Shown here: piece after piece, positions 15,265 to 37,197 of the stretch
Position numbering within the stretch: position 1 is the first letter of the stretch
Layout of the letters: every line of letters begins with the position of its first letter
NCBI RefSeq assembly: GCF_900113225.1
Contig: NZ_FOZE01000002.1
Location: 1,178,001 to 1,242,000 of the forward strand
Direction: 5' to 3'
From: Mitsuaria sp. PDC51
GTDB taxonomy: Bacteria > Pseudomonadota > Gammaproteobacteria > Burkholderiales > Burkholderiaceae_C
Length of the DNA stretch: 64,000 nt
Position numbers and translations under genes: made by a program
Notes under the pieces: generated by a model
The model's database searches: none
The model's input: only the letters and a program-made list of their open reading frames with translations
What the model was told of the DNA's origin: nothing

Positions 15265-15278
15265 GTTGCGTCATCTCT

Positions 15279-19119: not shown

Positions 19120-19185
19120 TTTATGTACTCCTTGTTCGTGAACGTGACCCCCGACGGAGGCGACACAACGTTCATCGCGGAGTGA

Positions 19186-19738: not shown

Positions 19739-19915
19739 ATGTGGCTCCTAGCCGTTTGATAGTGAGAACGATCGGCAACGCGGCAAGCGTTAGGCATTCC
19801 TGACAACACCGTAATCGCGCCGTCAGCGGCTTGCCCGCAGCGGCAACTCATCATGGCGACGCACTGGGCAGCCACCCGGCCACCAGCCCGCCAACCACGA
19901 TGTATCGGAGCGACC

Positions 19916-20281: not shown

Positions 20282-20689
20282 ACCTCGCTCGTCTGGACGT
20301 TCGACCTGCAATGGCGGTGCTTCGCCGTCAGCGAGCTGTTCGATTGGTGCTTCGCAGGAGCCTGGCTTGACGAGGACAAAGCGCGAGTCTGATGTCGGAC
20401 GGGTCGTTCCCGCCGGCAGCAGAAGGATCCAGCCTCGATGGTTGCTGCGGTAGCTGGTCAGGGCGAAGGGAGCTGTCGTGTCTTCCGGTCGGCGGCAATC
20501 CAGAGTCGCAGCTGGCACCTTGAACTCTGCCGCGGGGCGAACCGCCCACAGCGTCGCAAGACGCCAACCCTGGTTTTCGAGATGGGTCGGCACCCCTGGG
20601 GTCGTGCAGCCCCACAGGAAGAGCGCCAGCGTCACCAGGACGATGCCCCAGTGCGGCCTGTGCCGATCGATCTGCTTGGCTCGCCCCAT
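20270..20689 (-). CDS. Small lipoprotein of unknown function
   Basis: A 139-residue protein with a signal peptide ending in a lipobox (LALFLWGC, then TTPGVPTH), so it is probably anchored in the outer or inner membrane. The rest is a compact domain with a Cys in TLDCRRPED and another in KPGSCEAP. No family was recognised. ATG 20689 has GGTGGAA just upstream; the frame is open to 20758. A CzcR-like box lies 80 bases upstream. Confidence 0.6.
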   Translation of the reverse strand: MGRAKQIDRHRPHWGIVLVTLALFLWGCTTPGVPTHLENQGWRLATLWAVRPAAEFKVPAATLDCRRPEDTTAPFALTSYRSNHRGWILLLPAGTTRPTSDSRFVLVKPGSCEAPIEQLADGEAPPLQVERPDERGSTR

Positions 20690-20768
20690 TTCCACCCCCG
20701 TGTGCTCGTCGATTGCCGAGAAGGGTCGAACTGTGGGACTGACAGCCCCGCCAAACACTGACCGCGGG

Positions 20769-20784
20769 ATTACAAGACTGACAA
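20769..20784. promoter_or_regulatory. CzcR-like operator box D between the lipoprotein and pgm genes
   Basis: The plus strand reads ATTACAAGACTGACAA, followed by CTTCGG as in box C (which continues CTTCGG after one G). It lies 51 bases before pgm and 80 before the lipoprotein gene. The TTCTAAAGT element of the czcE promoters is not found at the 30-base position on the lipoprotein side, so which gene it serves is unclear. Confidence 0.5.
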
Positions 20785-20835
20785 CTTCGGATCGTTCAAG
20801 GCTTCAGCGCCTCACGACCGGACCAAGGAACTCTG

Positions 20836-22497: not shown

Positions 22498-22969
22498 CGC
22501 AGGGTCGCCGCGCGCGGAACCTGCGCAAGATCCTGGTGGGTCAACCGATCTCGCCATTGATCACGCGCCCGCAGCTGCAGCCAGCGTTCGCCCGCTACGC
22601 TTCTTTCTGGTTGGCGTCGCTGCCACCATCGTTCACTGGGTTGTCGTCGCCGCCACCGTCTCGACTTTCGGTTGGGAGCCTTTGAGGGCAAATCTGGTGG
22701 CGTGGCCGACGGCCGTGGGCGTGTCGTTCATCGGCCACCAACGTTGGACGTTTGGTTCAAGGCGAGCTGCCACGAGAAGCGCGGCCCCAAGGTTTCTGGT
22801 GGTGTCACTCGCCGGCTTCGTCCTCAACCAGGTCATGTTCGCATTGCTGCTGCGATGGACCGAACTTCGGTACGGCGCTGCACTCGCGGTGGTGCTGCTG
22901 CTTACGGCAAGCGTGACCTACCTCGCCAGCAACCTGTGGGCCTTCTCTGCTCCATTGGATCGACCATAG
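22484..22969 (+). CDS. gtrA: GtrA-family membrane protein
   Basis: A 161-residue protein with four membrane helices (for example FFLVGVAATIVHWVVVAATV and FLVVSLAGFVLNQVMFALLL) and the GtrA-family motifs, including HQRWTFGS and YLASNLWAF. GtrA proteins are thought to flip undecaprenyl-phosphate-glucose across the inner membrane. The ATG at 22484 lies inside the 3' end of pgm; the first 35 residues are poor in family features, so a later start is possible. Its usual partner GtrB is at the left edge of the window on the other strand. Confidence 0.85.
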   Translation: MRRPDAGSPRAEPAQDPGGSTDLAIDHAPAAAASVRPLRFFLVGVAATIVHWVVVAATVSTFGWEPLRANLVAWPTAVGVSFIGHQRWTFGSRRAATRSAAPRFLVVSLAGFVLNQVMFALLLRWTELRYGAALAVVLLLTASVTYLASNLWAFSAPLDRP

Positions 22970-23054
22970 CTGCTGCCGAAGTGCGGACCACCGCCGGTCT
23001 TGGCGAATTCCGCATCGCGACTGGACGTAGTTGCCACCGCTAGGCTTCTTGAAC

Positions 23055-24692
23055 TCAGAAGCTCTCGCGAAGCGGGATGCCCGCCAACCGGAGTGCTTGA
23101 CGCTTCAAGGCATCCTTGCGTGACCACTCCGGCGTATTGTGGTGATCACCGCGCTGCACCTCCTCCACATAGGTCACGTAGCCGGCTTCGTTGCATACGA
23201 CTATGTCAAGTTCACAGTTCTGTAAGTACATCCAATCCTCAGCGCTGAAGTGCGGCTTGAGCGCTCGCACGTCGACCAGACTGCGCATCGGATAGTTGGG
23301 AACCACAATGGAGCTTGGCAACTCGGCGCGAATCCGATGGAAGGCGTTGCACTCGGTGTTTGACCTGAACAATCGCGTCGACGTTGCCTCCGGTGGGAGG
23401 GAGGATTCGCCTTGCAGAAAGTAAGGATTGAGCACGAGCCGCCCGCGAGTGCTGCGGTGAAGCGCCTCACACATCCATCCCGAGCCTTCGGCATAAAGCT
23501 GCACGCTGGCGCCGTCTACGACGAGCGTGATGGCCTGCTCGGAGACTTCTAGGTGGCGAACGCCAGGAGTATCTAGCGCTGCGCTGGACAGCCAAACTGC
23601 CGCTTTATCCAAGGCCTCCGTCGCTTGCTCGTCGTGCAACCAGCGCTGGGTCTCGGAGCTCCAGATGGGCCACGACGCCGCTGTCATCAGCTGTTGGAAG
23701 GAGTGGCACTCGGGCAGCCACTCTTCAGTTACCCGATAGATCAGCCTGTAGCGCTCGGCCAAACCGAGGATTTCGTTTTTCTTCCCATTGTGCTTGCTCA
23801 GGTACATGTTCAAGCAGTTGAGAAAATCGTCCCCGTCTTTCGGTTTGAGCTCGATCAAGGCTCGTAGGGCCTTGTTGGGGTCGTTCTTGTGGAGCACCCA
23901 GTCCCGGCGCATACGGTCCTGGTCCGGTGTCGGCTCTTGGTGCATCTTCAGGCGCTCCAACTCCCTCTCGTAGGTTGACATAGCTCTGGGTGATTCGTCA
24001 GCGACAAGCTGGCGCAGGTCGGAGGCGAGGCGATTGTTCAAAGCAGCGCAGAAACGACAGTCGCACGACTTCGACGAGACTCTCGCGTCCGTTGTGTCCA
24101 AGCTGTGTCGGCAACGTTGGCAACTGAACATGCCGCGGAATAGCAAGGCTGGGTTGGCGACGTCTAGCGTCTTGAGGCGATAGCTTCCGTCCTCGCCGCA
24201 AGCAGGACAACGAACCTTGGCTTCAAGTCCAATGTCCAAGGACGCGAGATTCGCGAAGCTGATGCTCTTCGCGTTCTTCCACGGGGACGCGTTGCCGGTT
24301 TCGAGCAACATCCGAAGCGCTTCGAGGGCCGCCAATTTTGCGAAGACTTGGCGAAGCGTTCGAGCCTGTGGCTCCAGTGGACCGTTGGCGCCATTTCCGA
24401 AGACGGGCGGCCGTACAACGGACTTGGCCGCCGTGGCCGTTCGTTGGTCCAATATCTCCGAGAGGTAAGTGAGGACAGCGTCGCTTTGCTCCGGTGTGCA
24501 TGCGGCAACCAACTCAGCGACGGCGGCGTGAATGACAGGCTGCAACATGCTAGCCAACGCAGCCTGAATCTGCTCTCGATCGAGCGACACTTCTGCCCGG
24601 TGCCGATGGTGAAGGCGAGCAAGCCTCTCCCTTCCGGCATCAGAAATCAGTGGGATCTCGTGCGCGCTGGAACGCCACCTCATGAGCCGCAT
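23055..24692 (-). CDS. Zinc-ribbon protein with C-terminal DUF2726 (nuclease-like) domain
   Basis: A 545-residue protein of unknown function. The middle has two zinc-binding groups: CPACGEDGSYRLK with CQRCRHS, then CDCRFC. The last about 110 residues (RSNTECNAFHRIRAELP to the end AGIPLRESF) fit DUF2726, a PD-(D/E)xK-like fold: the acidic residue in ELDIVVC and the E-x-Q in YVEEVQRGDHH stand where the active site is expected. The N-terminal 170 residues are helical. ATG 24692 has GAGG five bases upstream. It stands alone, convergent with gtrA. Lone large proteins ending in a restriction-type fold on Tn7-like elements are often phage defence, which is the best guess here. Confidence 0.65.
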   Translation of the reverse strand: MRLMRWRSSAHEIPLISDAGRERLARLHHRHRAEVSLDREQIQAALASMLQPVIHAAVAELVAACTPEQSDAVLTYLSEILDQRTATAAKSVVRPPVFGNGANGPLEPQARTLRQVFAKLAALEALRMLLETGNASPWKNAKSISFANLASLDIGLEAKVRCPACGEDGSYRLKTLDVANPALLFRGMFSCQRCRHSLDTTDARVSSKSCDCRFCAALNNRLASDLRQLVADESPRAMSTYERELERLKMHQEPTPDQDRMRRDWVLHKNDPNKALRALIELKPKDGDDFLNCLNMYLSKHNGKKNEILGLAERYRLIYRVTEEWLPECHSFQQLMTAASWPIWSSETQRWLHDEQATEALDKAAVWLSSAALDTPGVRHLEVSEQAITLVVDGASVQLYAEGSGWMCEALHRSTRGRLVLNPYFLQGESSLPPEATSTRLFRSNTECNAFHRIRAELPSSIVVPNYPMRSLVDVRALKPHFSAEDWMYLQNCELDIVVCNEAGYVTYVEEVQRGDHHNTPEWSRKDALKRQALRLAGIPLRESF

Positions 24693-25042
24693 GGTCACCT
24701 CTATCTGCGAAACCGTAGATCGCAGTTATCTCATAGACCTCTTCGTCCCCGACGAGGCTGCGGGCCCCAGGCACGAGCCTCCGTCATCGAGAGAGTGCAC
24801 ACGCGGAGCTGCCCGGACCTTTGCGCAGATGTCTGGACGCTTCATGCTGACGCGGCTTGGACTTTTTGCACCGAGGCCAGTGAGGGGGGGGCCGACGCTT
24901 TAGGTCTGGAGAGACATCGGCACCTTGTCGCGAAGCAGCTATGACCGGTCCGACCAACGAATCGCCAGCGCCGGTCTGGACGTGTCGGCGAGATGGAGAC
25001 GGAGTGGGAGAGAGGGGAATTTACTTCCTGGTCGCAAAGAAA
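24693..25042. other. Gene-poor interval with no recognised element
   Basis: About 350 bases between the start of the DUF2726 gene and the terminator of the toxin-antitoxin operon. It must hold the promoter of the DUF2726 gene. Short frames exist on both strands, but none has a ribosome site and a protein-like composition together. A run of eight G lies near 24883-24890. Confidence 0.5.
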
Positions 25043-25064
25043 AAGGCCCGCAGATGCGGGCCTT
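25043..25064 (-). terminator. Terminator of the toxin-antitoxin operon
   Basis: A 9-base perfect stem pairs 25043-25051 (AAGGCCCGC) with 25056-25064, loop AGAT. On the minus strand it is followed by CCTTTTTCTTT. It lies 22 bases after the antitoxin stop codon. Confidence 0.9.
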
Positions 25065-25085
25065 GGGGCGCGAGCGGAAGACGTC

Positions 25086-25505
25086 TTACGCTGCGAGACG
25101 TGCGTTGCTCTCTTCGTGCTGCAAAGCAGCAGCTTCCGCCTGCTCTACGGCAGCGGCGGCCTCTTCAGCTTCGCGCTCAAGCGCGCGATCACGCTCCAAC
25201 TCCTGCTGACGTCGCAAGGCTTGGTCACGAACGATCGCTCGCTTCTCAGCATCCACAAATCTCTTGCAGATTTCGCGGATCAACGGCTGATAGCCCATCC
25301 CATTCAGTTGGGCGATCGCCTTCAAGTCTCGAACCATCTCTTTGGTGAAGCGGATCGAAATCGGGTGAAGGCCGAGCGCTTCGTCGACGTTCTTTGACTC
25401 GTCGGCCTTTTTTGCGTGGGTCGGGTCGTTGCCGAGGTGTCCGGTGGGCCCCCAGTCATCCGCAGTCGCTTCCACGCGATCGAGCAGATCTTGGTTGATG
25501 GGCAT
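25086..25505 (-). CDS. BrnA/CopG-like antitoxin
   Basis: A 139-residue protein. The middle (DEALGLHPISIRFTKEMVRD, then LKAIAQLNGMGYQPLIREI) has the ribbon-helix-helix look of CopG-type antitoxins such as BrnA. The C-terminal 50 residues are a long charged helix, rich in Glu, Ala and Arg (ELERDRALEREAEEAAAAV), which may be a coiled coil. It lies 8 bases downstream of the toxin-like gene on the same strand, the toxin-first order of BrnTA. ATG 25505 lies in a strong context. Confidence 0.75.
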   Translation of the reverse strand: MPINQDLLDRVEATADDWGPTGHLGNDPTHAKKADESKNVDEALGLHPISIRFTKEMVRDLKAIAQLNGMGYQPLIREICKRFVDAEKRAIVRDQALRRQQELERDRALEREAEEAAAAVEQAEAAALQHEESNARLAA

Positions 25506-25513
25506 GTGCGCTC

Positions 25514-25801
25514 CTAGTTTCCGTGAAGGTCAAAAATGTCTTGTATCGTCTTCGTGGCTGGGTACGCAGTCTTCAGATAGATGTTCTCTTCGTCTTCGAC
25601 ATACACGATCTTCAGCAGCCTTCCCACGTGGGTCTCCGCCACGAACCAAACCGTGGCCGGATCGGTCCGATGCTCTTCCCGGTCGTCGCAGACGACTCGC
25701 CCGCATCGATTGAGAAAGCACTCTCGCACTTCCCGGTCCGTGACCGAGCCGTGAGAGGGGTCCCCGATCTTCTGTCGGATCTTCTCAGAAATGACGAGCA
25801 T
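25514..25801 (-). CDS. Small toxin of a toxin-antitoxin pair
   Basis: A 95-residue protein starting MLVISEKIRQKIG. Its pattern REVRECFLNR, then TDPATVWFVAETHVGRLLKIVYV and IYLKTAYPATKTIQDIF fits a family often labelled ADP-ribosyl-(dinitrogen reductase) hydrolase in genome records, but small and BrnT/RelE-like in size, layout and partnership. The label is probably a carried-over error. ATG 25801 is preferred; the frame is open to 26116, but the longer form has no matching sequence. It is followed after 8 bases by the antitoxin. A likely RNase-type growth inhibitor that stabilises the element. Confidence 0.72.
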   Translation of the reverse strand: MLVISEKIRQKIGDPSHGSVTDREVRECFLNRCGRVVCDDREEHRTDPATVWFVAETHVGRLLKIVYVEDEENIYLKTAYPATKTIQDIFDLHGN

Positions 25802-25810
25802 GGCAAGATT

Positions 25811-25899
25811 GTATATACGCCACGATGCCCCTGCAATTTTGATGCTCTCCTCGTAGGGATGAGCGGAAGGCATCACTCGCGGAGAGCACGTATATACGT
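25811..25899 (-). promoter_or_regulatory. Paired GTATATAC palindromes before the toxin-antitoxin operon
   Basis: Two copies of the palindrome GTATATAC lie at 25811-25818 and 25890-25897, the second inside the perfect 12-base palindrome ACGTATATACGT (25888-25899). They are 79 bases apart, in the 5' region of the toxin gene. Such sites commonly bind the antitoxin for autoregulation. The AT-rich palindrome stands out in this high-GC DNA. Confidence 0.6.
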
Positions 25900-26358
25900 C
25901 CAGGTTCCTCCCAACACAAGCCCCGACAGACGGCCGGTGTAGCTTTGATGGGCAAACGCGCGTCCCGCGTCTTCGTTGGTGTTCGTAGATCGGAGTTACT
26001 CCGACCCAGCGTCCCATCTTTGGCTGTCTGTCACCGCGGGAAGCTGTGAGACGCCGCAATCTCCTGTGACGTCGAACCAACGCGGGATCGCACCACTCGC
26101 GGTTGGAAGCCAGCAAACTAGAGGATAACCCATTGATTTATATGGACAATTAGACGAGGCAGTCTTGCGAACAGGCTGTCAGTGAACGCCCACGTCAAAG
26201 TGGTGTCAAAAGTTCTCACAGCAGACACTCCAAAATCAAGGACTTGCCGCCGGCGGAGAAAGACCAGGGATGCAGCGCTGGTGGTCCTGTTGCTAGGGTT
26301 GGAGGCGCAAAGCTCCGGACGCCCATCAGCCGCGCCAGATCATCTAGGGCTGACAAAC
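25900..26358. other. Gene-poor interval with AT-rich patch
   Basis: About 460 bases between the toxin-antitoxin control region and the terminator of the HTH gene. There is an AT-rich patch at 26129-26150 (CATTGATTTATATGGACAAT) that could hold a promoter. An open frame of about 121 codons on the plus strand from 26182 runs antisense into the HTH gene and has no protein-like features, so I do not call it. Confidence 0.4.
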
Positions 26359-26379
26359 CGAAGGGCTGATAGCCTTTCG
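26359..26379 (-). terminator. Probable terminator after the HTH gene
   Basis: A 9-base stem with one mismatch pairs 26359-26367 (CGAAGGGCT) with 26371-26379 around a 3-base loop, eight bases after the stop codon at 26387. On the minus strand it is followed by GTTTGT, a weak T-run. Confidence 0.5.
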
Positions 26380-26386
26380 CATCTCT

Positions 26387-26716
26387 TCATCGTGCGCTCA
26401 GCTTCCTTGCCAGCTCCATCGCGCGTGCGCGAGAGGCCTCTCGCTCCTCCGGACTTGACCTCTCGGGCGACGGCACGTCTTCCAGGATCGCTTCGGCGCG
26501 GATCTGGTCAAGGTCGCCCGGATCCGAAGCAACCCAAATGGGCTTGAACCATGCTTCGAACTCGTCGGCAAGGACGCGCGGCGACGTACCTTCGGTGGAC
26601 CACCGGACGTCGCCCGGGTATTCGGCAAGAATTCTCTCCAGGAACGACCGCGATAGACCCAATCGCTTGGCGACCTCGGTAGTTGTGATCCAACGGGCGT
26701 CGTCTGTCGGCTTCAT
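26387..26716 (-). CDS. Small helix-turn-helix DNA-binding protein
   Basis: A 109-residue protein. Residues 10-30 (ITTTEVAKRLGLSRSFLERI) form a helix-turn-helix of the excisionase/MerR-like type. The rest has a Trp-Phe stretch (EFEAWFKPIWV) and a charged C-terminal helix. GAGG lies five bases before ATG 26716. It is the last gene of a four-gene run on the minus strand starting with the metallophosphoesterase. It may regulate the operon. Confidence 0.7.
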   Translation of the reverse strand: MKPTDDARWITTTEVAKRLGLSRSFLERILAEYPGDVRWSTEGTSPRVLADEFEAWFKPIWVASDPGDLDQIRAEAILEDVPSPERSSPEEREASRARAMELARKLSAR

Positions 26717-26767
26717 GTTGACCTCGCCACGGTTGCCGGGCCACTGCTTCTATCGCTCACGATCTGA

Positions 26768-26938
26768 CTAGCGCTTACGAGCGCCTTTGGGGCCAAGCAG
26801 CACACGGACGTTTCTTGGCTCCAGCTCGATGCCGGCGTCAAATTCTGCTTTCGTGGGCATCCGTATGCGAGCCGCCTTTTCGACCAGTTCCGAGCGGACC
26901 ACGACGAATTTTCCCGGTGCTACCTTCACGCGCTTCAT
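26768..26938 (-). CDS. Small hypothetical basic protein
   Basis: A 56-residue protein beginning MKRVKVAPGKFVVVRSELV and ending LLGPKGARKR, with a beta-rich start. ATG 26938 has GAGG six bases upstream; the frame is open to 26989. It lies 51 bases before the HTH gene and 54 bases after the 113-residue gene on the same strand. The composition (VVVRSELVEKAARIRMPTK) recalls a small antitoxin-like beta-sheet protein, but no family was recognised. Confidence 0.5.
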   Translation of the reverse strand: MKRVKVAPGKFVVVRSELVEKAARIRMPTKAEFDAGIELEPRNVRVLLGPKGARKR

Positions 26939-26992
26939 GACGCACCTCTTTCGCATCGAACCTACTTGCACCGCCGCGTTGGCGGCCAAGCG

Positions 26993-27334
26993 CTACCGTT
27001 GACCCAAGCGATCCGTCAGGCGAGCCAAGATCCACGAGCGGTAGCTCTCGGGCATTTCGAAATCGTTGGCCAAGTTGACCCTGAATTTTTCCAGCATCTG
27101 CTCCGTCGTCAGAGCTGCGTACTTAGGCTTGAGCGCCTTCTCTCGAAGGAAACCCACGGCCCAGTCCACCACTTCGCAACAGCGCAGGAAGTCCTCAGCC
27201 CGCTCCTCCGGCAGGGAGCCAGGCTCGTGAAATCGGCCATCGGGTCCTCGCGTGAGGCTGAACTTGAGTTGCATGCCGGACAGCGATCCGCCGAAGGGAG
27301 GGTGAGGGAAGTCGTCTGGAACGGCAAGGGTCAT
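26993..27334 (-). CDS. Hypothetical protein coupled to the phosphoesterase gene
   Basis: A 113-residue protein beginning MTLAVPDDFPHPPFGG, helical in its C-terminal half (VDWAVGFLREKALK and SYRSWILARLTDRLG). No motif was recognised. Its ATG overlaps the stop of the metallophosphoesterase as ATGA, with GGAG seven bases upstream, so the two are translated together and may work together. Confidence 0.6.
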   Translation of the reverse strand: MTLAVPDDFPHPPFGGSLSGMQLKFSLTRGPDGRFHEPGSLPEERAEDFLRCCEVVDWAVGFLREKALKPKYAALTTEQMLEKFRVNLANDFEMPESYRSWILARLTDRLGQR

Positions 27335-28137
27335 GGCTTCGCTCCTTCAACAAACTGTGCGGCCGCGGGTGCCCGACTCATGCGAGCTGCGCTTGGCCCG
27401 TCGAGCTCGCCAGGCACCACCACCTCCAGCTCGCCGTCCCCGTTGATGGCCGTGATGCCACGCAACCCTACCCCTACGGACTTGAAGCCCTGAGATCGCC
27501 ACGCCTGCGATTGATCCTCAAACCGCCAACGCGCATCGTGAAGGTGTCCGTGCGCAAGCAGACTCACCCCTAGGGCGCGCGCCAGGTCGTCCAGGACGGG
27601 GAACCCGTACGGGTGATATCCGCTCGCCTCATGGGTCACGAGAATGTCTGCCCGCTGCCGCTTGAGCCGCTCGAAGTCTTCGGGGTAGATGGTGCCCCAA
27701 TGCTTGAAGTGAGGCCCCTCACCGTAGCGATCCTGACGAGGCGTTGAACGCGCATGTTGGCGCATGCTGCTGAAGCTTGGCGGTGCGCCAGCGGAACCGC
27801 CGGCCCCCTTGGGCATCCAAACACTGCCGCGGAATACGTGCCCGAGGCCGGCGATCCTTCGCCCATCCTCGAGCTTCACAACCCGGCCATGCAGGTTCCT
27901 ATCCGCCAGCCCGCTCTGCCAAGTGCGCTCGATGTCGACGATCCGATCCGAGTCATGGTTCCCCGGGATCCACCATACGCGGTCGGCCACCGGAGCCAAG
28001 ACCGTCTCCAGGGGAGCGTCAGGCTCCATGTCGCCGAGAAGGATGACCGCAGCGGGATCGATCTTCGTCGTCGCCTCAAGGATGTGGGTGAACTGCCCGT
28101 GAGGATCGCCGCAAAGCAGGATGGGTCGAAGGTTCAT
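27331..28137 (-). CDS. Calcineurin-like metallophosphoesterase
   Basis: A 268-residue protein with the full set of metallophosphoesterase motifs: GDPHG near residue 10 (with His13-type ligand), GDME, GNHDSDR, THEASGYHP and GHLHDARWRF. It needs two divalent metal ions and cleaves a phosphodiester or phosphomonoester; the substrate cannot be told from sequence. It leads a four-gene run (28137 to 26387) on the minus strand with two small unknown proteins and a DNA-binding protein. As cargo of a Tn7-like element with unknown small partners it is a candidate accessory or defence module. Confidence 0.85.
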   Translation of the reverse strand: MNLRPILLCGDPHGQFTHILEATTKIDPAAVILLGDMEPDAPLETVLAPVADRVWWIPGNHDSDRIVDIERTWQSGLADRNLHGRVVKLEDGRRIAGLGHVFRGSVWMPKGAGGSAGAPPSFSSMRQHARSTPRQDRYGEGPHFKHWGTIYPEDFERLKRQRADILVTHEASGYHPYGFPVLDDLARALGVSLLAHGHLHDARWRFEDQSQAWRSQGFKSVGVGLRGITAINGDGELEVVVPGELDGPSAARMSRAPAAAQFVEGAKP

Positions 28138-28315
28138 GAGTCAGGAGCCGCGCTTCGCCTCCGACGCGGCAGGTCGGAATTCAGGCTGGCAAGGGCATTC
28201 CTAAACCGTCCGCAGGCCAGGGATCCAGTCCGTCAGAGTTGAGGGACGGCCTTGGCGTTCTAACAGCTAATCCGGCTCTGGGCAACGTAACACTGTTGAA
28301 GGCGTGCTCCTCGCA

Positions 28316-30277
28316 TCAACCCGTGCCATGGCGCCGAGGACCAGATATTGGCCCCTTCGTGTCCCGCTTCAACTGCAGCTTGCCCAGTTCAAGGCCGGCC
28401 TTTCTCAGGGCGTTGAGCGCCGCTGCATGACCGGACACCCTTTCGCCCTGCGCCTTGCTATGACGGAAGTCGACCTTCGGGTCCCCGGGGCAATAGGGGA
28501 GCACTCGCTCCATTACGCCCCGGTGTTCCCGGATGGCCTCAAGGAGACGGGGGAGCCAAGCATCAATGTCGTTGGGGCGCTTCAGGGCTATCGCCAACCC
28601 GCTGTACTTGTCGTTCTCCAACTCTTCCAACCCACCCTCCGGAGTTGCCTTGCTCCGTCGTTCGACATCAAGGATGAAGATGGTCCGGTCGGGAGTTTGC
28701 ACACGCGCGATCAGAACACCCCGCGGAGTCCGGCCATCAACATCGACGTAACCCCAGCTATCGCCCCCCGGCAAGGCCTCATGGTCGCTCAAGCCAGGTA
28801 TGCGAAGAGGCTGAAGTCGCGGAGGCCTGCTGTCCCAACGTGGATTCACATCCACGAAGTCGTCCTCGCGCGTGAACCAACTCAAGGTCATCACCTGCTG
28901 CGGATGTTCCGTGGCCAAGAACCTCAGCCCCTCCCAGAGGTCGCGCAGCGTCCCGTACGACTTCAGCTCAATGGCCGAGTGGTGCGACGCATAGCTCACA
29001 CCGCCAGCTTGAGATCCCCCGCGTTCTGCGGCTGACGCTTGATCTGCAGGTTCCTCTTGGGGGATGAGCGTCCCGCGGGGCTTGCGCTCGCCCCCCTCCT
29101 GACTTCGGCTCACAATTTCGCGAGCCACGCCCAGGATCTGCATCTTTGGGTCCCGCATCAGCACTGAGCTGGAAGAGGTTGTGGGTGCTTCCAGATCGAC
29201 AAGGGACGCCTCCGCCTTGTCGTCGGCGTCAAATTGGCGTCGGTAGTAGCCGCCGGGCCCGATCTCTCCGTTCTCGCGGCGTTCGTCGACACCGTCGTCT
29301 TCCTCGGTCAATGCTTGGTCGCGAACGACCTCGATCGGCGGGCCCGACGGCTGCGACATCCCGGTGATTCGAAGGCCAAGGAACGTCTGTTCATCGACCT
29401 GCAATCCCTCGACCTCGAGTTGTGCCGTCCCGTGCCACCAGGGATGAATCTTCGGGAATGCAACTTCACGGAACCAGTCTTCGCTCTCATGTTCGGACCA
29501 CCGCCCGTCCGCGCTACCTGTTGTCGCAGTGGCAGGCTTTCGTGGTCGGACCACGGCTTGAAGCTGCTGAAAAAGTTCGTTGACCCGCTCGCGCGTCTGC
29601 TCTTCGAAGAGCAGATGCCCCAGGAGCAGGGCATCGTCCTGATACATGCCCGGATGGAGCCGCAGTTGCCATCTCGAAGACGACGACCCAAGGATCGTCG
29701 AGCACATCATGGGAAGACAGTTTTTGAGTGAATGTTGGGTCAACAGCCTCGTGAGTCGACCCGATCTGCCGTAGCAGCGAGCGAGGAAAACAGCAGCGGG
29801 AATCAGGAGCGTTAGCCCTTTCGCCGTCGTGAGCCGGACCATCTCGCTGCGGTCTCTGCCGTGCTTTCGGAGAAGGTATTTCTCGGGCGGGAAAGGGAGA
29901 TTTCCACCCGAGCCGGCCATGGAAACAAAGTCGTACTTCCCGTCCGAGAAGTCCACCGTGAACAACCTGCGCTGGTAACGGATTTGACTCGTCGAACGCT
30001 TGTTGGACCAGATCGAGCCGATCGACAGCAGGGGCAGCGACGTGATCGCCATGGTCCTGGAGAAGAACTCGCCGAACGTGTTGTCCGGTCTGAGGTCGCG
30101 AAAGAGCACCTCGATATGCGGCAGCGCCACGTCCTTCCGGGGGTTCTGCATGATGCCCAGGGGCCACCAAACGACGCAGGCTTCGTCTTCCTCGTTCCCC
30201 TCGCTCCGCTTGCGGCGCCCCAGGGCCGCCAATTCGGGACTGCGTATTACTTCTTCTCGGTCGATGAGATCAGGCAC
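28316..30277 (-). CDS. tnsE: TnsE-like target-choice protein
   Basis: A 653-residue protein that follows the layout of Tn7 TnsE (538 residues) over its length as I recall that sequence: an early IEVLFRDLRP and TSLPLLSIGSIWS, then YLLRKHGRD, LEVEGLQVDEQTFLGLRI, an acidic low-complexity middle, and a C-terminal domain with GVLIARVQTPDRTIFILDVERRS, SGLAIALKRPNDIDAW and a final GERVSGHAAAL. The C-terminal part is the DNA-binding TnsE_C region. TnsE steers Tn7 to replicating lagging-strand DNA and conjugating plasmids, by way of the beta clamp. GTG 30277 begins the frame but lacks a clear ribosome site, so the start may be later. It is last in the transposition gene run. Confidence 0.75.
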   Translation of the reverse strand: MPDLIDREEVIRSPELAALGRRKRSEGNEEDEACVVWWPLGIMQNPRKDVALPHIEVLFRDLRPDNTFGEFFSRTMAITSLPLLSIGSIWSNKRSTSQIRYQRRLFTVDFSDGKYDFVSMAGSGGNLPFPPEKYLLRKHGRDRSEMVRLTTAKGLTLLIPAAVFLARCYGRSGRLTRLLTQHSLKNCLPMMCSTILGSSSSRWQLRLHPGMYQDDALLLGHLLFEEQTRERVNELFQQLQAVVRPRKPATATTGSADGRWSEHESEDWFREVAFPKIHPWWHGTAQLEVEGLQVDEQTFLGLRITGMSQPSGPPIEVVRDQALTEEDDGVDERRENGEIGPGGYYRRQFDADDKAEASLVDLEAPTTSSSSVLMRDPKMQILGVAREIVSRSQEGGERKPRGTLIPQEEPADQASAAERGGSQAGGVSYASHHSAIELKSYGTLRDLWEGLRFLATEHPQQVMTLSWFTREDDFVDVNPRWDSRPPRLQPLRIPGLSDHEALPGGDSWGYVDVDGRTPRGVLIARVQTPDRTIFILDVERRSKATPEGGLEELENDKYSGLAIALKRPNDIDAWLPRLLEAIREHRGVMERVLPYCPGDPKVDFRHSKAQGERVSGHAAALNALRKAGLELGKLQLKRDTKGPISGPRRHGTG

Positions 30278-30433
30278 GGTTGCGGGTTTTGAGAAAGCTC
30301 TGGGGCAAAGTATTGCCTCACCGTCGCCTCGTCCAAGAGCAGTGCAGCGTGCCCCTCACCCAAACGCCAAGTTCGTCACGAGCGCGCACGGTAGGTGCGG
30401 CCTGGCCACTCGAGCGTGCGCCTCAGTTGATGG

Positions 30434-31873
30434 TCACCTTGAACCGCGATACATAGGAGACGGATCAGGGATCCAGTACCGTTCCGCGCCATGCTCAAGC
30501 TCCACGCCACCGTATGCGGTGGAAAGCTTTCCCTCCGCCAGCAGGCGCTGAGCTTGCTTAAGAGAAATCCAATGGAAGTACATGAGCGCCACCGGCCGCC
30601 AGCGCTGATCAAAATCGGTAGAGCGGTCCTCTTCGAACAGCATCTGCCGGATCTGCACCTCAAGTTGTCGACGGCGCCTGTGGAAGATCGTGCGAGCGCT
30701 GGATTTCGGCACCGCAAGGTTGACGCCGAGCGTCTCACGAAGGAATGTCGCGAAGGCGAAGAGCGCGGCGCGTTGACCAGGCGCCTTCATGAGGTAGTGT
30801 GTGACGTCATCCTGCGCCGGGAGCTGGTCCCCTGCCAAAGATGCCAGATCGAGGGCGGGTCTAAACGACAGCCGCGCGGTCCGCACCGAGATATCTCCCT
30901 GTGCAACTCGCTTGCTCAAGAACTGATGAAATGCCATCAACGCTTGGCGAGGCAACGGCTGCTCTGGTAGCTCAGAGAGTTGCTCTTCGAAGCGCCTGGC
31001 TTCGGACGCTTGTATCTTCTTCTTGGCACCGATCTCGACTCCGAGCACTTCCGACAACCACCTGGCCGCTAGCAGGTGCGTGCGCAAACCTTGCGTTCCA
31101 AAATGGCCCAGCAGATCATCGGAGCGCCAGCCACCATCGTTGCGCTCCGGGAGAGCAGCTAGCTTGACGAAGAAGGCTACATGGCGCGGCAGTGACAGCG
31201 CCGTGCGTTTGGGGTCCGTTGTTGTGGCCGCCCAAGCCGCAAATTCCTTGAAGCGCTTTTGGATGCTGGCACGCGGGACCATATGCGAAAGCTGGTCCGC
31301 GTCGATCGAGCATTTCTGCGTCCAGTAGCAGCACTCACACCGGCCATTCGCCCCTGCAGCGACCGCGCTCCCGCAGGCTCCGCAAGGTGCCGAGGGGTTC
31401 TCCGCGCACTTCTTGCAGATCCATCTTCCGTCCGCGGTGGCAGTGCATGACCGCGATCGCCGGCAGCTGCTGCAGGTGTGGTGGTCGCTGTTGCATCCCG
31501 GACAAAGTCGCGGAGCTTCAGGATTGCCGTGGCGGCGAGACAACCGCGCTGATGGACGGTTGCAGCGTTCACACGGCTCCTCGTCAACGAAATAGGTCCG
31601 ACAACTCGAGCACGCAGGGCCGTTCGCCGTGAGCTTTCCTAGCGGCTGCCCGAAACGACGGCACCGCACACACGGCTGCTTCTTGATGCACGCCGTGCAC
31701 ACAGCGTCGGGTTCGCGCACAAAGAGCCGACTGAACATGCCGCAGCCACCGCACAACCGTCGCTTGAACAGCCGCGAGTAGCAGGTGTTGCAGTATGGAA
31801 TCTCACGGTAGACCTTGTGGGCGCGATCAATCGCGTGATCGCAGCCTCCGCAGATGATGCTCTTTTCGGTCAT
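30434..31873 (-). CDS. Multi-zinc-ribbon protein with recombinase-like helical half (transposition accessory)
   Basis: A 479-residue protein. The first about 190 residues hold twelve CxxC pairs (CGGC, CNTC, CGGC, CTAC, CVRC, CSSC, CERC, CPGC, CSSC, CKKC, CGAC, CECC), enough for six zinc ribbons. The rest is helical and looks like two copies of the DNA-binding arm domain of tyrosine recombinases (LRTHLLAARWLSEVLG; RQALMAFHQFLSKRV), but no Arg-His-Arg-Tyr catalytic set is seen. ATG 31873 overlaps the tniQ stop as ATGA, so it is coupled to tniQ. Some Tn7 relatives carry an extra recombinase-related gene (TnsF type); this could be a catalytically dead version used to read a target. Confidence 0.7.
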   Translation of the reverse strand: MTEKSIICGGCDHAIDRAHKVYREIPYCNTCYSRLFKRRLCGGCGMFSRLFVREPDAVCTACIKKQPCVRCRRFGQPLGKLTANGPACSSCRTYFVDEEPCERCNRPSARLSRRHGNPEAPRLCPGCNSDHHTCSSCRRSRSCTATADGRWICKKCAENPSAPCGACGSAVAAGANGRCECCYWTQKCSIDADQLSHMVPRASIQKRFKEFAAWAATTTDPKRTALSLPRHVAFFVKLAALPERNDGGWRSDDLLGHFGTQGLRTHLLAARWLSEVLGVEIGAKKKIQASEARRFEEQLSELPEQPLPRQALMAFHQFLSKRVAQGDISVRTARLSFRPALDLASLAGDQLPAQDDVTHYLMKAPGQRAALFAFATFLRETLGVNLAVPKSSARTIFHRRRRQLEVQIRQMLFEEDRSTDFDQRWRPVALMYFHWISLKQAQRLLAEGKLSTAYGGVELEHGAERYWIPDPSPMYRGSR

Positions 31874-32844
31874 AGGTATGCTCGATGCATGCGGCGCAGA
31901 AGGCGCGCCCATTCCTGGCGGACCAACCCCGCCGGCCGCGCACCCGAGTTCGGTCTGAACGTCGGGCTCCTACGTTTCTCACCTGATCGAGGATGCTGGG
32001 GGCCTGCCAGTAAGCAGGACACATCTTGCGACGTCATCTGCGCCAGCTGACTTGCCACCCGGCCAAGACGCAGATGGCGCTCACGCACGGATAGCAGTTC
32101 GAAGCGAAGTCCCGGCCCAATCGGTACCGGAGGGTTGCCGTTCACCATCAGTTCCTTAGGCTGCTTGAGCCGAACGCAGTGCTGCAGAACCCCGAACCAT
32201 GCAGGCGTCGCGACTTCGAGCGATCCGAGGGCACCTGTGCCGCACTTCAGCACGGTGTCCGCCCGTGCCTGCATCTCAGCGGCCCACGGGTCCAAGCGAC
32301 TCGCGATGGCACTGCGGTGATCGAACTGACAGTTCCAGCAGCTCGTGAGGCTCACGGGACGAGGAGTGTCGCGAAATGGTTGATGCACGGCCAGGCACTT
32401 GCAGCAGTGCTCAAGGAGTTCGCAACCGTGGTTCAAACAGCCCACATTCCATGCCGCACGCCATGCTCTACGGAGATAGGGTCGGACATCCGACGCGAGG
32501 CATTCGGGGCAAAACGGCTGGCCGCCCGCGTTCCTACGATTGCGCATTCCCCTTGCTGCCAGCCAAGGCCATACTGGCTCCGCGTGGCTAAGCGAAGCAC
32601 CCAAGGGCCGAAGCAAATCGCGCATCTCGCAGGCGCGAATTCGCTCCGCGTCTACACCGCAGGCTCGATGCAACGCATCTAAGCGGGCATCACTGAGCCC
32701 GCGATCCAGATCCACTGTCCATGCCCGCCAGCCTGGCCAGATCACGCCGGTCAAGGTGAGCGGTTCGCAGCGCGCTGCGACTGCGGAGCGCAGAAGCCAA
32801 CTTGAAAGCGTCTCGTCTACCTGGATTGGAGCAAGGCGGATCAC
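31870..32844 (-). CDS. tniQ: TniQ/TnsD-like target-site protein
   Basis: A 324-residue protein of the TniQ family. It begins VIRLAPIQVDETLSSWLLR, the typical TniQ opening, then has the zinc groups FCPECLASDV with CLNHGCELLEHCCKC and CWNCQFDH. TniQ/TnsD proteins bind a specific chromosomal site and recruit TnsC; here the site is presumably inside comM. I start it at GTG 32844, 10 bases after the tnsC stop, with AAGG eight bases upstream. The frame runs open to 33216 only because it overlaps tnsC. It is short for a TnsD, closer to TniQ of Tn5053/Tn6022 elements. Confidence 0.88.
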   Translation of the reverse strand: MIRLAPIQVDETLSSWLLRSAVAARCEPLTLTGVIWPGWRAWTVDLDRGLSDARLDALHRACGVDAERIRACEMRDLLRPLGASLSHAEPVWPWLAARGMRNRRNAGGQPFCPECLASDVRPYLRRAWRAAWNVGCLNHGCELLEHCCKCLAVHQPFRDTPRPVSLTSCWNCQFDHRSAIASRLDPWAAEMQARADTVLKCGTGALGSLEVATPAWFGVLQHCVRLKQPKELMVNGNPPVPIGPGLRFELLSVRERHLRLGRVASQLAQMTSQDVSCLLAGPQHPRSGEKRRSPTFRPNSGARPAGLVRQEWARLLRRMHRAYL

Positions 32845-32854
32845 GCAATCGCCT

Positions 32855-33760
32855 TCAGGCAGCCTTGCCTCGCAGCTTCGCGGTGCGGTACATGCCTCTG
32901 GCGCGGATGGCATCCTCAGTGATCTGCTCGATGCCTGTCTTGATCGCATTCTTGGCGAGCTCCTGAAGAAGGAACTGCAGATCGCCAAGAACTCCGCCAG
33001 AGTTCGTGTGGAGGAGGCTTGCCAGCCTGACCGTCGACAGGTGCGACGCCTTGCGCAGCGGCAACACGCTTTCGAACCCAGCGAGCAGCGTCTGGAACTT
33101 CTCGTCGGCGTCCCAAAGCGGCAGCGGCAAGACCTCAAATCGGCTGGTGTGCTGCGGGTCCGTGTACAGGACTTGGACCGCATTCGCAGTTCCGATCCCG
33201 ATGATGGGGACCCCACAGACGTTGCTCAGGTACTTGATCGCGTTCATCACTTCACCCTGCTTCTTCCTCGTCCCGCCTAGCAAGCTGTGGAACTCGTCGA
33301 TGAAGATCATCCTGACCTTGCAGTCGCGCAACTGCTGGACCACCTGATTGCGCAGAGTGATCGCTGGAGACGTGGCTCGATATGCCGTCCAGAATTGGTC
33401 AAGGATGGTTGCGTACAGGCCCTTCTCATCTGGAGTGGGAGGCGCCTGCGCGATGATTACCGGCTTGACCGCCTCCCGCTCCTCATCAATGAACGGCTCT
33501 CCGCATTGCTGGGCGAAGCGATACATCAGCGTGGTCTTCCCGTTGTTGGGCTCGCCAATGAGCAGATAGTTTTTTGGCCGTATGCGCGACGGTGCATTGA
33601 GAACACCCGTGAAGACGTCCAACACCTCCTTCGCTCGTCCGTAGCCTACCCAGCGGTCCTCTTCGATGAATGCGAGACGTTGGGCATCCGTCAGCTGCAT
33701 CACATGGCGAAACTTCTCGTTGACGTGGTCGTAGGGTCCGGAAGAAGTTGGACTACTCAT
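32855..33760 (-). CDS. tnsC: TnsC/TniB-like AAA+ ATPase regulator
   Basis: A 301-residue AAA+ protein. Walker A is IGEPNNGKTTL near residue 70, Walker B is MIFIDEFHSLLGG near 153, followed by a sensor region (IIGIGTANAVQVL). It links the target protein (TniQ) and TnsE to the transposase TnsB/TnsA and controls transposition immunity. ATG 33760 lies two bases after the tnsB stop; a TTG two codons earlier is the alternative. In size it is like TniB of Tn5053, shorter than Tn7 TnsC at 555 residues. Confidence 0.93.
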   Translation of the reverse strand: MSSPTSSGPYDHVNEKFRHVMQLTDAQRLAFIEEDRWVGYGRAKEVLDVFTGVLNAPSRIRPKNYLLIGEPNNGKTTLMYRFAQQCGEPFIDEEREAVKPVIIAQAPPTPDEKGLYATILDQFWTAYRATSPAITLRNQVVQQLRDCKVRMIFIDEFHSLLGGTRKKQGEVMNAIKYLSNVCGVPIIGIGTANAVQVLYTDPQHTSRFEVLPLPLWDADEKFQTLLAGFESVLPLRKASHLSTVRLASLLHTNSGGVLGDLQFLLQELAKNAIKTGIEQITEDAIRARGMYRTAKLRGKAA

Positions 33761-33762
33761 GG

Positions 33763-35724
33763 TCAACCGATGTCCAGGGTTGGAGCGATAGGCGCGTCAG
33801 TCATCCCGGAAAAGCCCACTTCGCCGCTCTGCCGAGCGGTCGGTGGTGACGAAGACACGAAGCCTTTCCCGGCCGGGGGCGAGGCGGACGGTGCGGGTGA
33901 CCCTGCCGACTTTGCAACCTTGCGGTGCTCCGAGTTGCGTTGCTGTTCTCGACGTGCCCGCTTGGTCTTTGCTGCCGATTCAGCGATGTCTTCCCGTCGA
34001 GACTTGATGGACTCAAAGACCGCATCGACGTCACCCGGATCGAACCCCTGGTCCTTCAGCTCTTTCTGAGCCCGCCGGTGTTCCCAGATGCTGATGCTGT
34101 CTTCTGTATAGACCCAGGGGACGCGGAAGTACTGCTTGACGTCCGGGTCGAAGAACCAGAGCGCCGAAAGGTCCCGCGGGTCTCGGCGGAACCGCAGCTT
34201 CGGGCTCGCCTTGGTTTCCGTATCCTCCTGACCAATCCAGGGTCGAAGGCAATGATCAAAGTAGCGGAGGTTATCAAGCGTCACACCATCCTTTTGAATG
34301 GTGCGCTCAAACGACGGCATGAAGTGCAGCATCAACGCGTGCTTGTCCTGGGTCCTGCTCGGCAGACCTGTCCCACGCGCGGTGGGTCCGCCAAGCAGAC
34401 CTTGCTCCCACTTGCGCAGGGGAGTCATGCCGATCGCGGAATGAGGACGACGGTGGTACTCGTTGCAGATCACCTTCACCAACTGCCGCTCGAACTCGGA
34501 CAAGTTCATGATCGCCCGACCTTCTGAGTCGTACTCGCCGCGCTGTTCAACGTTGGAGAACGTGGTACCCGGTATGTCGTGAATCTCTCGCATCAGCGTC
34601 CCTTGGAGCCTCTCGATGCGGCCGCCGAATCTCGGCGTGCAAGCGGGCCGCCAATGCAGATCAATTCCCAGCTCCGTGCAGGCCCGGATGAAGTCACTCG
34701 ATCGGAACTCTGGGCCGTTGTCCGAGACAATCAGCTTAGGGCGCCCCCAGGCCGGCCAAACAGCATCGATGCCGAGCTTCAGCAGCCCTTCCTCCTTCGG
34801 CAGGATTGCATGCGCCATGCACATGGCGCTCGACGTCCTGGAGGGAGCGTCGAAGGAGAGATAAAAGCCCAGCACCATCCGGCTGAACCCGTCCATGGCC
34901 AAGGTGATCCAAGGCCGGCCGATGGGCTTGCGGTACACGTCATCCACCAAGATGACGTCCACACGCGTATGGTCGATCTCAACGCGCGAAAGCGGGAAGT
35001 CCACGTCGGGTGCGGTGCCAGGAGTTGCCTGAAAGCGCTGCTTCGCAGCCTCCTTCTTCCCGCGCTTCTTCATCCGCTCTTCAAGAGGGATGGCGTCGAT
35101 GCGCGCTTTCAGCGCGGTTGGGCTCGGTGCCTCAACTTTGTACTCACGACATTTGATTGCAAGTAGGCGGTGCGTCTTCGTGAGGGATGGTGCCTCCGCG
35201 GTCATGTAGTACTCATCGATCACAGCTCGCAGAGCCCGCTCGGCGTGCGCATCCAGGCGCCAGTTCCCTTTCTTCCAACCTCGTTTTCCCTCGAGCAGCG
35301 AGGAGACAGCATCGAAGTTTCGGTACTTGCTCAACCAGCGATACAACGTCGACGTGTCCTTGCCGACGCGGGCGGCGTGCTCGGACACCACGCTGCGGGT
35401 GAGATGACCCGCCTCAATGAGCGGGCGGATGATTTCAAATCGGGCGCGGGCCACCTGCCAGTCCTCATCGTTCACCGCCGCAATGTCTTCCATCGACATG
35501 GGAGGGATCTCATTGCCCAGAGGTTCGAGCTCGAAGAGGCGCAGAACGTCAGGGCGCCCGGTGTCGACGTTGCGCGCAAACACTGACTCAAGCCCCAGAA
35601 CCTCGACGACACGGAAGATCCCGCTCGCGTGCTTGACCAAGGCTCCCGGACCGGTGGAAAACGTTGCCAGATTCTTCGTCACGGCGCTGGTCGAGCCCGC
35701 TTCGCTCTCGATGGCTTCACTCAT
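33763..35724 (-). CDS. tnsB: TnsB-like DDE transposase
   Basis: A 653-residue transposase of the retroviral-integrase superfamily. N-terminal helix-turn-helix regions bind the end repeats (SVVSEHAARVGKDTSTLYRW). The catalytic triad is Asp251 (RVEIDHT), Asp335 (IVSDNGPEF) and Glu371 (GGRIERLQG), a D-D-35-E spacing. A C-terminal Mu-type domain and a charged tail (AAKTKRARREQQRNSEHRK) follow, the tail probably touching TnsC. It makes the 3' strand cuts and joins the ends to target. Its start overlaps the tnsA stop by 8 bases. Confidence 0.95.
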   Translation of the reverse strand: MSEAIESEAGSTSAVTKNLATFSTGPGALVKHASGIFRVVEVLGLESVFARNVDTGRPDVLRLFELEPLGNEIPPMSMEDIAAVNDEDWQVARARFEIIRPLIEAGHLTRSVVSEHAARVGKDTSTLYRWLSKYRNFDAVSSLLEGKRGWKKGNWRLDAHAERALRAVIDEYYMTAEAPSLTKTHRLLAIKCREYKVEAPSPTALKARIDAIPLEERMKKRGKKEAAKQRFQATPGTAPDVDFPLSRVEIDHTRVDVILVDDVYRKPIGRPWITLAMDGFSRMVLGFYLSFDAPSRTSSAMCMAHAILPKEEGLLKLGIDAVWPAWGRPKLIVSDNGPEFRSSDFIRACTELGIDLHWRPACTPRFGGRIERLQGTLMREIHDIPGTTFSNVEQRGEYDSEGRAIMNLSEFERQLVKVICNEYHRRPHSAIGMTPLRKWEQGLLGGPTARGTGLPSRTQDKHALMLHFMPSFERTIQKDGVTLDNLRYFDHCLRPWIGQEDTETKASPKLRFRRDPRDLSALWFFDPDVKQYFRVPWVYTEDSISIWEHRRAQKELKDQGFDPGDVDAVFESIKSRREDIAESAAKTKRARREQQRNSEHRKVAKSAGSPAPSASPPAGKGFVSSSPPTARQSGEVGFSGMTDAPIAPTLDIG

Positions 35725-36448
35725 TGGTCGGGATCCACAGTTCGGTGTTGAGGTTCAACGGCCAGCAGACATCGCATTCGATCCTTCGGTTCGCGACCAG
35801 ACTCCAAAGTTGCGCGACACCTTCTGCACGATGGGCCGGGGTGAAGTACTTGTTGAGCAGGTACTCGAACTCGATGAGGCCGAGTTCCTCAAGGTCTTCG
35901 AGGATGCAGAGGTTGAGCGCCTCTTCGAACTCCAGGTCTTCGTAGCGACGCAGAAACTTGATGTTGTCGAGTGCTAGGGTGCGGATGCGTCGGTCATCCA
36001 TGATCGTGAAGCGCCAGCCCATCTCGATCGCGTAGCGTCGAGCAGCCTTCCACTTCGCACTCCACTCTCGCCAGTTCGCCTTCCAGTCCGCCGTGGGCTT
36101 CACTTCGACCAGCAGGGGCTTCCGCTGCTGCTTCAAGCTGCCTGGCGTGTGCCGGTACGTCACCAGGAAGTCCGGCGTGTAGGTGTACTTACGCCCGCTT
36201 GGCCCAACAAACGCTACCGCGCACGGCTGTGAAACCACGTGCGCTACGGCGAGGCTGAAGCGCTGCAAAAGAAGGTAATCCTTCTCCAGCGGCGACTCAA
36301 AAGGGACGCCTGGCTCCCCGTCGCGGAAGAAAACATGGCCCGTGACGTTGCGGTATGACCGCGGAATCTTGCGAACCGACCGGGGCAGGTCGGTGGAGTC
36401 GCACTTATTTGAAGAAGTCTTCTGGGCAGTCGCAGCTAATTTGCTCAT
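35717..36448 (-). CDS. tnsA: TnsA-like endonuclease
   Basis: A 243-residue restriction-type endonuclease that cuts the 5' strands at the element ends, making transposition cut-and-paste. The active site can be seen: Glu55 in FESPLEKDYL, Asp93 in TPDFLV and Glu115-x-Lys117 in LVEVKP. The C-terminal half has the winged-helix domain that meets TnsC. ATG 36448 lies inside the end region: two of the four end repeats overlap codons 3-18, so TnsB binding probably represses the operon. First gene of the transposition operon, 83 bases from the tip. Confidence 0.95.
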   Translation of the reverse strand: MSKLAATAQKTSSNKCDSTDLPRSVRKIPRSYRNVTGHVFFRDGEPGVPFESPLEKDYLLLQRFSLAVAHVVSQPCAVAFVGPSGRKYTYTPDFLVTYRHTPGSLKQQRKPLLVEVKPTADWKANWREWSAKWKAARRYAIEMGWRFTIMDDRRIRTLALDNIKFLRRYEDLEFEEALNLCILEDLEELGLIEFEYLLNKYFTPAHRAEGVAQLWSLVANRRIECDVCWPLNLNTELWIPTNE

Positions 36449-36531
36449 TTGCGTCGCAGCAATTTCGAGGAGAACCGCGCTAAGTGATTGTCAGGCGTGT
36501 AACTCAGTCGCAGCAATGGAAATTTGTCACA
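36397..36531. repeat. Right end of the Tn7-like element with four TnsB-type sites
   Basis: Plus-strand copies: AGTCGCACTTATTT (36397-36410), AGTCGCAGCTAATTT (36428-36442), GCGTCGCAGCAATTT (36451-36465), CAGTCGCAGCAATGG (36505-36519). All share the core GTCGCA with an AT-rich tail. The tip at 36518-36531 reads GGAAATTTGTCACA, that is TGTGACAAATTTCC on the minus strand. Four closely set sites match the right end of Tn7. The region also holds the promoter and start of tnsA, which makes autoregulation likely. Confidence 0.85.
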
Positions 36532-37197
36532 GGTGGCTCGCCGCCGCGCCCCGGCGAGATCACGCTGGCCCAGCATGGCGTGCTGTTTCTGGATGAACTG
36601 CCGGAGTTCCAGCGGCTGTCGCTCGAAGCGCTGCGCGAGCCGCTCGAGACCGGACGCGTCCATATCTCCCGCTCCGCGCATCAGGCGGATTTCCCGGCGC
36701 GCTTCCAGCTCATCGCCGCGATGAACCCCTGCCCGTGCGGCCATCTCGGCAATCCGACCAAGGCCTGCCGCTGCTCACCGGACCAGGTCACGCGTTATCA
36801 GAACCGGCTCTCCGGGCCACTGCTCGACCGCATCGACCTGACGGTGGAGGTGCCGGTGCTGCCGGCCGCGGTGCTCTCGGCCGCACCGGACGGCGAGCCC
36901 AGCGCCACCGTCGCCGCGCGCGTCGCAGCGGCCCGCCGGCGCGCCGAAGCCAGGCAGGGTTGCGTGAACGGCCGGCTGGCCGCGGGTCAACTGGACGAGC
37001 ACCTGCGGATGGCGCCCGACGCCGAGGCGATGCTGCATCGCGCGTCGGCGCGGCTGGCGTGGTCGGGACGCAGCTTCCATCGCGTGCTGCGGATCGCGCG
37101 CACCATCGCCGATCTGGCGGCCGAGGACATCGTTGCGCCGGCGCACGTCGCGGAAGCGATCCAGTGGCGACGCGCGCTGCCGGGCCGTGAGGAATGA
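36532..37197 (+). pseudogene. comM: comM 3' part, interrupted by the Tn7-like element
   Basis: The frame resumes at 36532 with GGSPPRPGEITLAQHGVLFL and runs 221 residues to the stop. This is the C-terminal part of ComM/YifB, the Mg-chelatase-like AAA+ helicase that helps integrate transforming DNA. Seen are the Walker B-type FLDELPEF, the sensor AMNPCPCG with a zinc-like Cys set, and the C-terminal ARTIADLAAEDIV. The usual protein is about 500 residues, so at least half is missing. The first 16 codons of the open frame from GTG 36484 belong to the element. Break-point is the G-G-S motif. Natural transformation is probably reduced. Confidence 0.92.

Follow-up and report, generated by a model that had tools for sequence, protein, structure and literature searches.

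In the sections drawn on here, Faure et al. (2023; PMC10293859) describe the comM-targeting transposon Tn6022, in which the protein TnsF (formerly orf3 or tniE) carries several zinc fingers ahead of a tyrosine-recombinase part that is inactive. TnsF of the Acinetobacter johnsonii element binds comM DNA and also binds TniQ, and insertion into comM suffers when TnsA, TnsB, TnsC, TniQ or TnsF is removed. A review (PMC11406308, likewise as far as the sections drawn on here) has Tn6022 reach comM via TniQ and Orf3 and plasmids presumably via TnsE, homologues of which it gives as almost universal among comM-targeting elements. Here we analyzed a stretch of 64,000 nucleotides from Mitsuaria sp. PDC51 (contig NZ_FOZE01000002.1, positions 1,178,001 to 1,242,000), hereafter the window, which contains part of a 53,277-bp element inside the competence gene comM. 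The element belongs to this already described family and is no new kind of system; its unusual point is that tnsE lies directly behind the other transposition genes, not far off and facing them.

A Tn6022-type element in comM

The right tip of the element lies at window position 36531, exactly where the original prediction had put it, and reads TTTGTCACA. The left tip, at C4:1161255 of the same genome and 16.7 kb beyond the window's left edge, begins TGTCCC, and the left end carries TGCGAC repeats at 20 and 40 bp from the tip and an inverted one at 67; these and the repeats of the right end (Table 1) are putative binding sites of the TnsB type. A profile match places the 5' part of comM around C4:1160458-1160826, beyond the element's left end, and joining the flanks over one GGTGG yields a comM of 507 codons with no internal stop. 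The insertion point falls at the final codon of the GGG within ALIGGGSPP; the Walker B stretch GVLFLDE follows 13 codons later. Measured by kilobase, the GC fraction is 0.58-0.68 in the window's part of the element (to 36 kb) versus 0.67-0.75 in the chromosome rightward (from 37 kb).

Reading inward from the end inside comM, six single open frames follow one another on the - strand from 36448 to 28316, as had been predicted: tnsA, tnsB, tnsC, tniQ, a zinc-ribbon gene and a gene of 653 codons. Pfam names the products of the first four as TnsA, TnsB, TnsC and TniQ. Motif inspection finds candidate catalytic residues in place in TnsA and TnsB and Walker-type motifs in TnsC, and we take these to have the catalytic and Walker roles that the motifs suggest. 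The true start of tnsA is possibly further in, as its first codons overlap the end repeats. The short overlaps and gaps that the prediction gave for the whole run hold as far as the zinc-ribbon gene, which is followed by a 156-bp gap (30278-30433) before the 653-codon gene.

Of the features by which we recognized the family, the following were found at this locus: a single run of genes for TnsA, TnsB, TnsC and a short TniQ; a tnsF that overlaps tniQ (by 43 nt); a tnsE homologue in the element; and insertion in comM with a 5-bp duplication and repeats at both ends. Because the six genes are open, both ends have repeats and a duplication, comM can be restored and the TnsF and TniQ homology points the same way, we consider it very probable that this is a complete Tn7-like transposon of the Tn6022/AbaR type, the kind that had been proposed.

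Table 1. Features of the element and its flank in the window (positions are those of the window)
Feature	Position	Strand	Remarks
tnsA, endonuclease	35717..36448	-	at most 243 aa; Pfam Tn7_TnsA-like_N, 2.3e-17
tnsB, transposase	33763..35724	-	653 aa; Pfam Mu-transpos_C, 9.3e-12; candidate DDE residues present
tnsC, TniB-type AAA ATPase	32855..33766	-	303 aa; Pfam TniB, 3.7e-62; Walker-type motifs
tniQ, short	31870..32844	-	324 aa, GTG start most likely; Pfam TniQ, 2.4e-17; 43-nt overlap with tnsF
tnsF (orf3/tniE) homologue, presumed comM selector	30434..31912	-	492 aa; twelve CxxC motifs
tnsE homologue, divergent, Tn6022-type	28316..30277	-	653 aa; directly behind tnsF
Right transposon end	36398..36531		four TGCGAC repeats 20, 74, 98 and 129 bp from tip; tip read inward is TGTGACA
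5-bp target duplication GGTGG	36532..36536		second copy at C4:1161250-1161254, outside the window
comM 3' part (Walker B and C-terminal domain)	36537..37197	+	Pfam Mg_chelatase, 6.7e-52
Cargo (metal efflux block and others)	1..28315		extends 16.7 kb left of the window

TnsF, TnsE and the number of target routes

The zinc-ribbon protein has its twelve CxxC motifs within the first 195 residues, enough for six four-cysteine zinc sites and in agreement with the six ribbons predicted. Judged by sequence, it is a TnsF homologue. Searches of six TnsF members against Pfam, and of their profile against PDB sequences, gave no recombinase match, the fold itself being unseen by sequence. TnsF relatives occur in 69 of 72,556 plasmid records (tblastn), 51 of which are from Acinetobacter; the best 20 of the 69 share 31.7-35.3% identity across 91-98% of the protein, and identity falls to about 24% in weaker records. 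With both loci of the Mitsuaria element described below set aside, eight loci from other elements matched the 5' part of comM in the first survey, and in all eight the similarity reached the window's site and stopped within a few bases after it.

How many target routes does the element possess? The original prediction had comM reached through TniQ alone and raised a third route through the zinc-ribbon protein, so that TniQ would serve comM, TnsE plasmids and the zinc-ribbon protein some further target. Three candidate selector proteins do stand side by side here. However, the zinc-ribbon protein is a TnsF homologue by sequence, the two proteins of the A. johnsonii relative bind each other and are both needed for comM insertion (PMC10293859), and TniQ, at 324 aa, is too short to include the long C-terminal part of TnsD. 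We therefore regard three independent routes as very improbable, and neither the TniQ-only route nor the third route survives. By analogy, TniQ and TnsF would jointly make up the comM route of this element, giving two target routes and not three, because in the A. johnsonii relative TnsF is the protein that binds comM and TniQ is its partner.

That the 653-residue protein is a divergent TnsE is clear at the family level, and the identification rests on the family rather than on the single protein. We aligned relatives at 16-39% identity, plus one in Mitsuaria at 90%, and took 11 of these as a family for comparison with seven classical TnsE proteins, whose profile matches TnsE in PDB entry 5d17 at an expectation value (E) of 7.5e-74. 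The two sets aligned in hhalign at 97.9% probability and E 4e-13, with 481 columns in order, almost end to end. The real score was 110.6, versus a best of 28.6 among 40 column-shuffled versions, and the TnsE family gave at most 0.1% probability against the TnsB, TnsC and TnsF families. Removing the three proteins of the window's clade left the match at 97.4%, and an 8-sequence family gave 93.2% with E 3e-7. TnsE groups are less than 10% identical to one another and were matched by predicted structure in Faure et al. (PMC10293859, sections as above).

Several results weigh against this identification and would fit an unrelated protein, cargo or accessory, that stands behind tnsF by chance. No family of Pfam or NCBIfam matches the 653-residue protein directly, and neither it nor its family has a meaningful match among PDB sequences, so that the TnsE-like label of the original prediction stands through family-to-family comparison and not through a direct match. 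Searched across the entire genome up to E 1, Pfam TnsE_C (PF18623) has no hit, and none of the 11 family members matches it singly. Against classical TnsE, the three sequences of this genus's clade by themselves reach only 0.26%, and two other small subsets reach 4.7% and 1.4%. In the 8-sequence family, the N-terminal part gives 84% and the C-terminal part by itself 8.3%. An AlphaFold2 single-sequence model was unusable (mean predicted local distance difference test score 31.1), and according to the review mechanistic information on TnsE is lacking beyond prototypic Tn7 (PMC11406308). Yet a chance neighbor would not account for the ordered family-to-family match, which persists without the window's own clade, or for the TnsE-family matches, some of them weak, in 12 of the 16 genomes with a TnsF match, the window's included (13 of 16 once a better profile had added G1058). 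Nor would it explain why, in 7 of 16 placed elements, the family gene sits beside the 5' part of comM on the strand opposite to tnsF, the TnsE position of Faure et al. (sections as above). We give the chance-neighbor explanation hardly any credence. Viral contigs, scanned three times, yielded no relative of either TnsE or TnsF.

Placement of tnsE and of the insertion point

With a cutoff of E 0.001, the genomes that have a TnsF match number 8 of 399 drawn from the order, 3 of 16 from the genus, 8 of 399 from the family and 3 of 369 from the class, in draws that overlap and with counts that each include the window's genome and some partial matches. For 16 elements, tnsE and tnsF could both be located within a single contig or record. 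Outside this set stand G937 (tnsE on another contig), G133 (contig ending in tnsF, no tnsE found), G373, G518, G287 and G382 (partial tnsF), G540 and G668 (TnsE-family match without a TnsF match) and 21 of the 25 plasmid records.

In the usual arrangement, which we did not take as defining the family, tnsE occupies the far end and is read from the opposite strand; 7 of the 16 placed elements, the window's included, deviate from it. Far off and facing tnsF is the state of nine: G180, G892, G981, G555, G348, G058, Halomonas PA16-9, Methylobacter YRD-M1 and the A. baumannii C13 plasmid. The gene adjoins the comM 5' part in the first seven of these, the ones for which the element end was located. 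G555 is classed with the nine at a tnsE-tnsF distance of only about 3 kb. In three elements tnsE is convergent and close (Pseudomonas putida YC-AE1, G902 and G1058), in one it is on the same strand but far (G989), and in three it is co-directional and adjacent: the window's, that of Mitsuaria sp. GD03876 (G775) and G765. Partial tnsE matches on the strand opposite tnsF also occur in uncounted plasmid records of P. veronii, A. seifertii and A. baumannii (CP110467 and MG954377). On re-reading, the tnsE matches of G180, G555 and G058 contain no internal stop; the gene is broken in P. putida, with two internal stops, and in Halomonas PA16-9, where the match is split between two frames, and in G348 it is matched over its first half only. 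Separately, contig 1 of G892 holds, at about 2.18-2.21 Mb, a second and degenerate Tn6022-like copy whose tnsF and tnsE remains contain several stops.

The three co-directional elements, all from the window's genus, form one clade in trees of TnsB (15 rows, without G892 and G981), TnsC (16 rows, without the Acinetobacter row) and TnsF (15 rows, without G981 and G133), with support of 100/99, 99/98 and 98/98; the program warned of long branches for the TnsC and TnsF trees. Because G765 is distant from the window's element (TnsE 39%, TnsF 44% and TnsB 54% identical), the co-directional order is probably old and kept. In G765, too, the comM similarity extends as far as the window's site and ends within a few bases. 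The original prediction was to fall if the 653-residue protein lacked a TnsE profile match and the gene order was not kept in other comM insertions. There is indeed no direct match, yet the homology is clear at the family level; the order, for its part, is confined to this one clade of the genus, with tnsE placed differently elsewhere.

The co-directional order might instead be the ancestral Tn7-like one, with tnsABC, selector and tnsE all reading one way, kept here and lost elsewhere. In six of six classical TnsE records tnsE does follow the TnsD-family gene on the same strand. However, the co-directional adjacent state is limited to one clade in all three trees, the remaining two main arrangements are each represented on either side of the root that was used, and the four arrangements need four changes on each tree. 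We find retention of an ancestral order unlikely. For a derived order, one inversion of the stretch from tnsF to the left end repeats would convert the usual arrangement into the window's. The literature searched, mostly titles and the beginnings of abstracts together with passages of PMC10293859, PMC8649781 and PMC11406308, contained no description of a co-directional adjacent tnsE.

The GD03876 element (contig NZ_JAOCCU010000004.1, L008; G775 locus L058 is the same sequence over the 16,000 bases compared) has the same gene order as the window's and shares 91-99% identity with it across the six proteins. At the DNA level it matches about 51 kb of the window element's 53 kb, at 96.6-99.1% identity, the left 1.8 kb of the GD03876 element being different. 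It is inserted in the same orientation 56 bp upstream in comM, so that its right tip lies 101 bp from the GVLFLDE codons, versus 45 bp in the window; it is flanked on both sides by its own duplication, CCCGG (L058 12946 and L090 3539; G775 contig 34), and its empty comM site also reads 507 codons. Because two near-identical elements with clean duplications sit at two points, the lineage of the window's element has probably transposed recently, and, as a point against our reading of the comM route, the pair suggests that the point of insertion is not entirely constrained. The two elements make a natural test of how strict TnsF is about the insertion point. About 49 kb without a match of at least 400 bp to the window's element interrupts the cargo in G775 (contig 34, about 27783-76478), perhaps as a nested element.

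Proposed mechanism, cargo and known systems

Under the mechanism we propose, TnsA and TnsB would cut the element out at its TGT...ACA ends, and TnsC would link them to a target chosen by one of two routes. On the first, as shown in the A. johnsonii relative, TnsF would bind comM near the Walker B codons and TniQ would bridge TnsF to the transposition machinery, the short TniQ being the presumed adaptor between TnsF and TnsC. On the second, we infer that the divergent TnsE would direct insertion into replicating conjugal DNA. We further suggest, tentatively and with appreciable doubt, that in one Roseateles/Mitsuaria clade TnsE may have come under the transposase-TniQ-TnsF transcript, so that both routes would be expressed together, and that the comM route may tolerate points 56 bp apart, which would imply that the spacing from where TnsF binds to where TnsC directs insertion is flexible. 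A promoter and terminator scan of the gene run found no excess of either (0 promoters versus a shuffle mean of 1.1; 4 terminators versus 6.7) and neither supports nor excludes co-transcription of tnsE with the run.

The cargo includes a metal-efflux block (window 6560-18208, - strand) with a two-component pair, a P-type ATPase, a CDF transporter, an RND pump, and membrane-fusion and outer-membrane proteins. It also includes an IetS/IetA-like defence pair (L006 9366-12769, that is C4:1167366-1170769; PADLOC 6.7e-48 and 4.7e-78) and, at L006 13326-16418 (C4:1171326-1174418), a 1030-aa phosphoesterase plus NACHT/STAND protein that matches the candidate defence family PDC-S60 at 4.2e-82. A 547-aa cargo protein (window 23055-24698, - strand) has weak matches to Zn_ribbon_IS1595 (1.2e-5) and, at its C terminus, to DUF2726, and the matching DNA of the GD03876 element holds an open frame of equal length (L008 16147-17790). 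Among the 30 proteins scanned with Pfam, which do not cover the whole element, there was no tyrosine recombinase and no Cas family, with no dedicated CRISPR/Cas search. In two plasmid elements other genes adjoin tnsE: an AAA ATPase gene and an S8 peptidase gene in P. putida (L017 7960-11479), and genes annotated as SAVED-domain, Mov34/MPN and ThiF in A. baumannii C13 (L021 28558-32001), presumably a defence cluster.

The present locus extends the experimentally described TnsF-dependent comM transposons to Roseateles/Mitsuaria, with a compact and complete six-gene set, and the wider comparison reveals tnsE in differing positions and orientations across the Tn6022-type family. The A. johnsonii Tn6022 (PMC10293859, sections as above) shares with the window's element tnsA, tnsB, tnsC, a short tniQ, tnsF and a divergent tnsE, as well as insertion in comM near the Walker B codons, a target duplication and overlapping tniQ and tnsF genes. 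It differs in that its tnsE lies close to the left end and is encoded on the other strand, whereas the window's is co-directional and 156 bp behind tnsF. The direct protein comparison was made with the A. baumannii C13 plasmid element (L021), not with the A. johnsonii sequence itself, and the six proteins are 23-46% identical to the window's. Prototypic Tn7 (TnsABCDE) has the same two-route plan, with tnsE directly downstream of the gene for the chromosomal-site selector; however, it uses TnsD, with its long C-terminal DNA-binding part, and glmS, where the window's element has a short TniQ, TnsF and comM, and the window's TnsE has diverged too far to be matched directly by a profile. Tsy elements (PMC10293859, sections as above) likewise use a TnsF relative for insertion into comM, but they move by a tyrosine recombinase and without Tn7 components, whereas the window's element has TnsABC.

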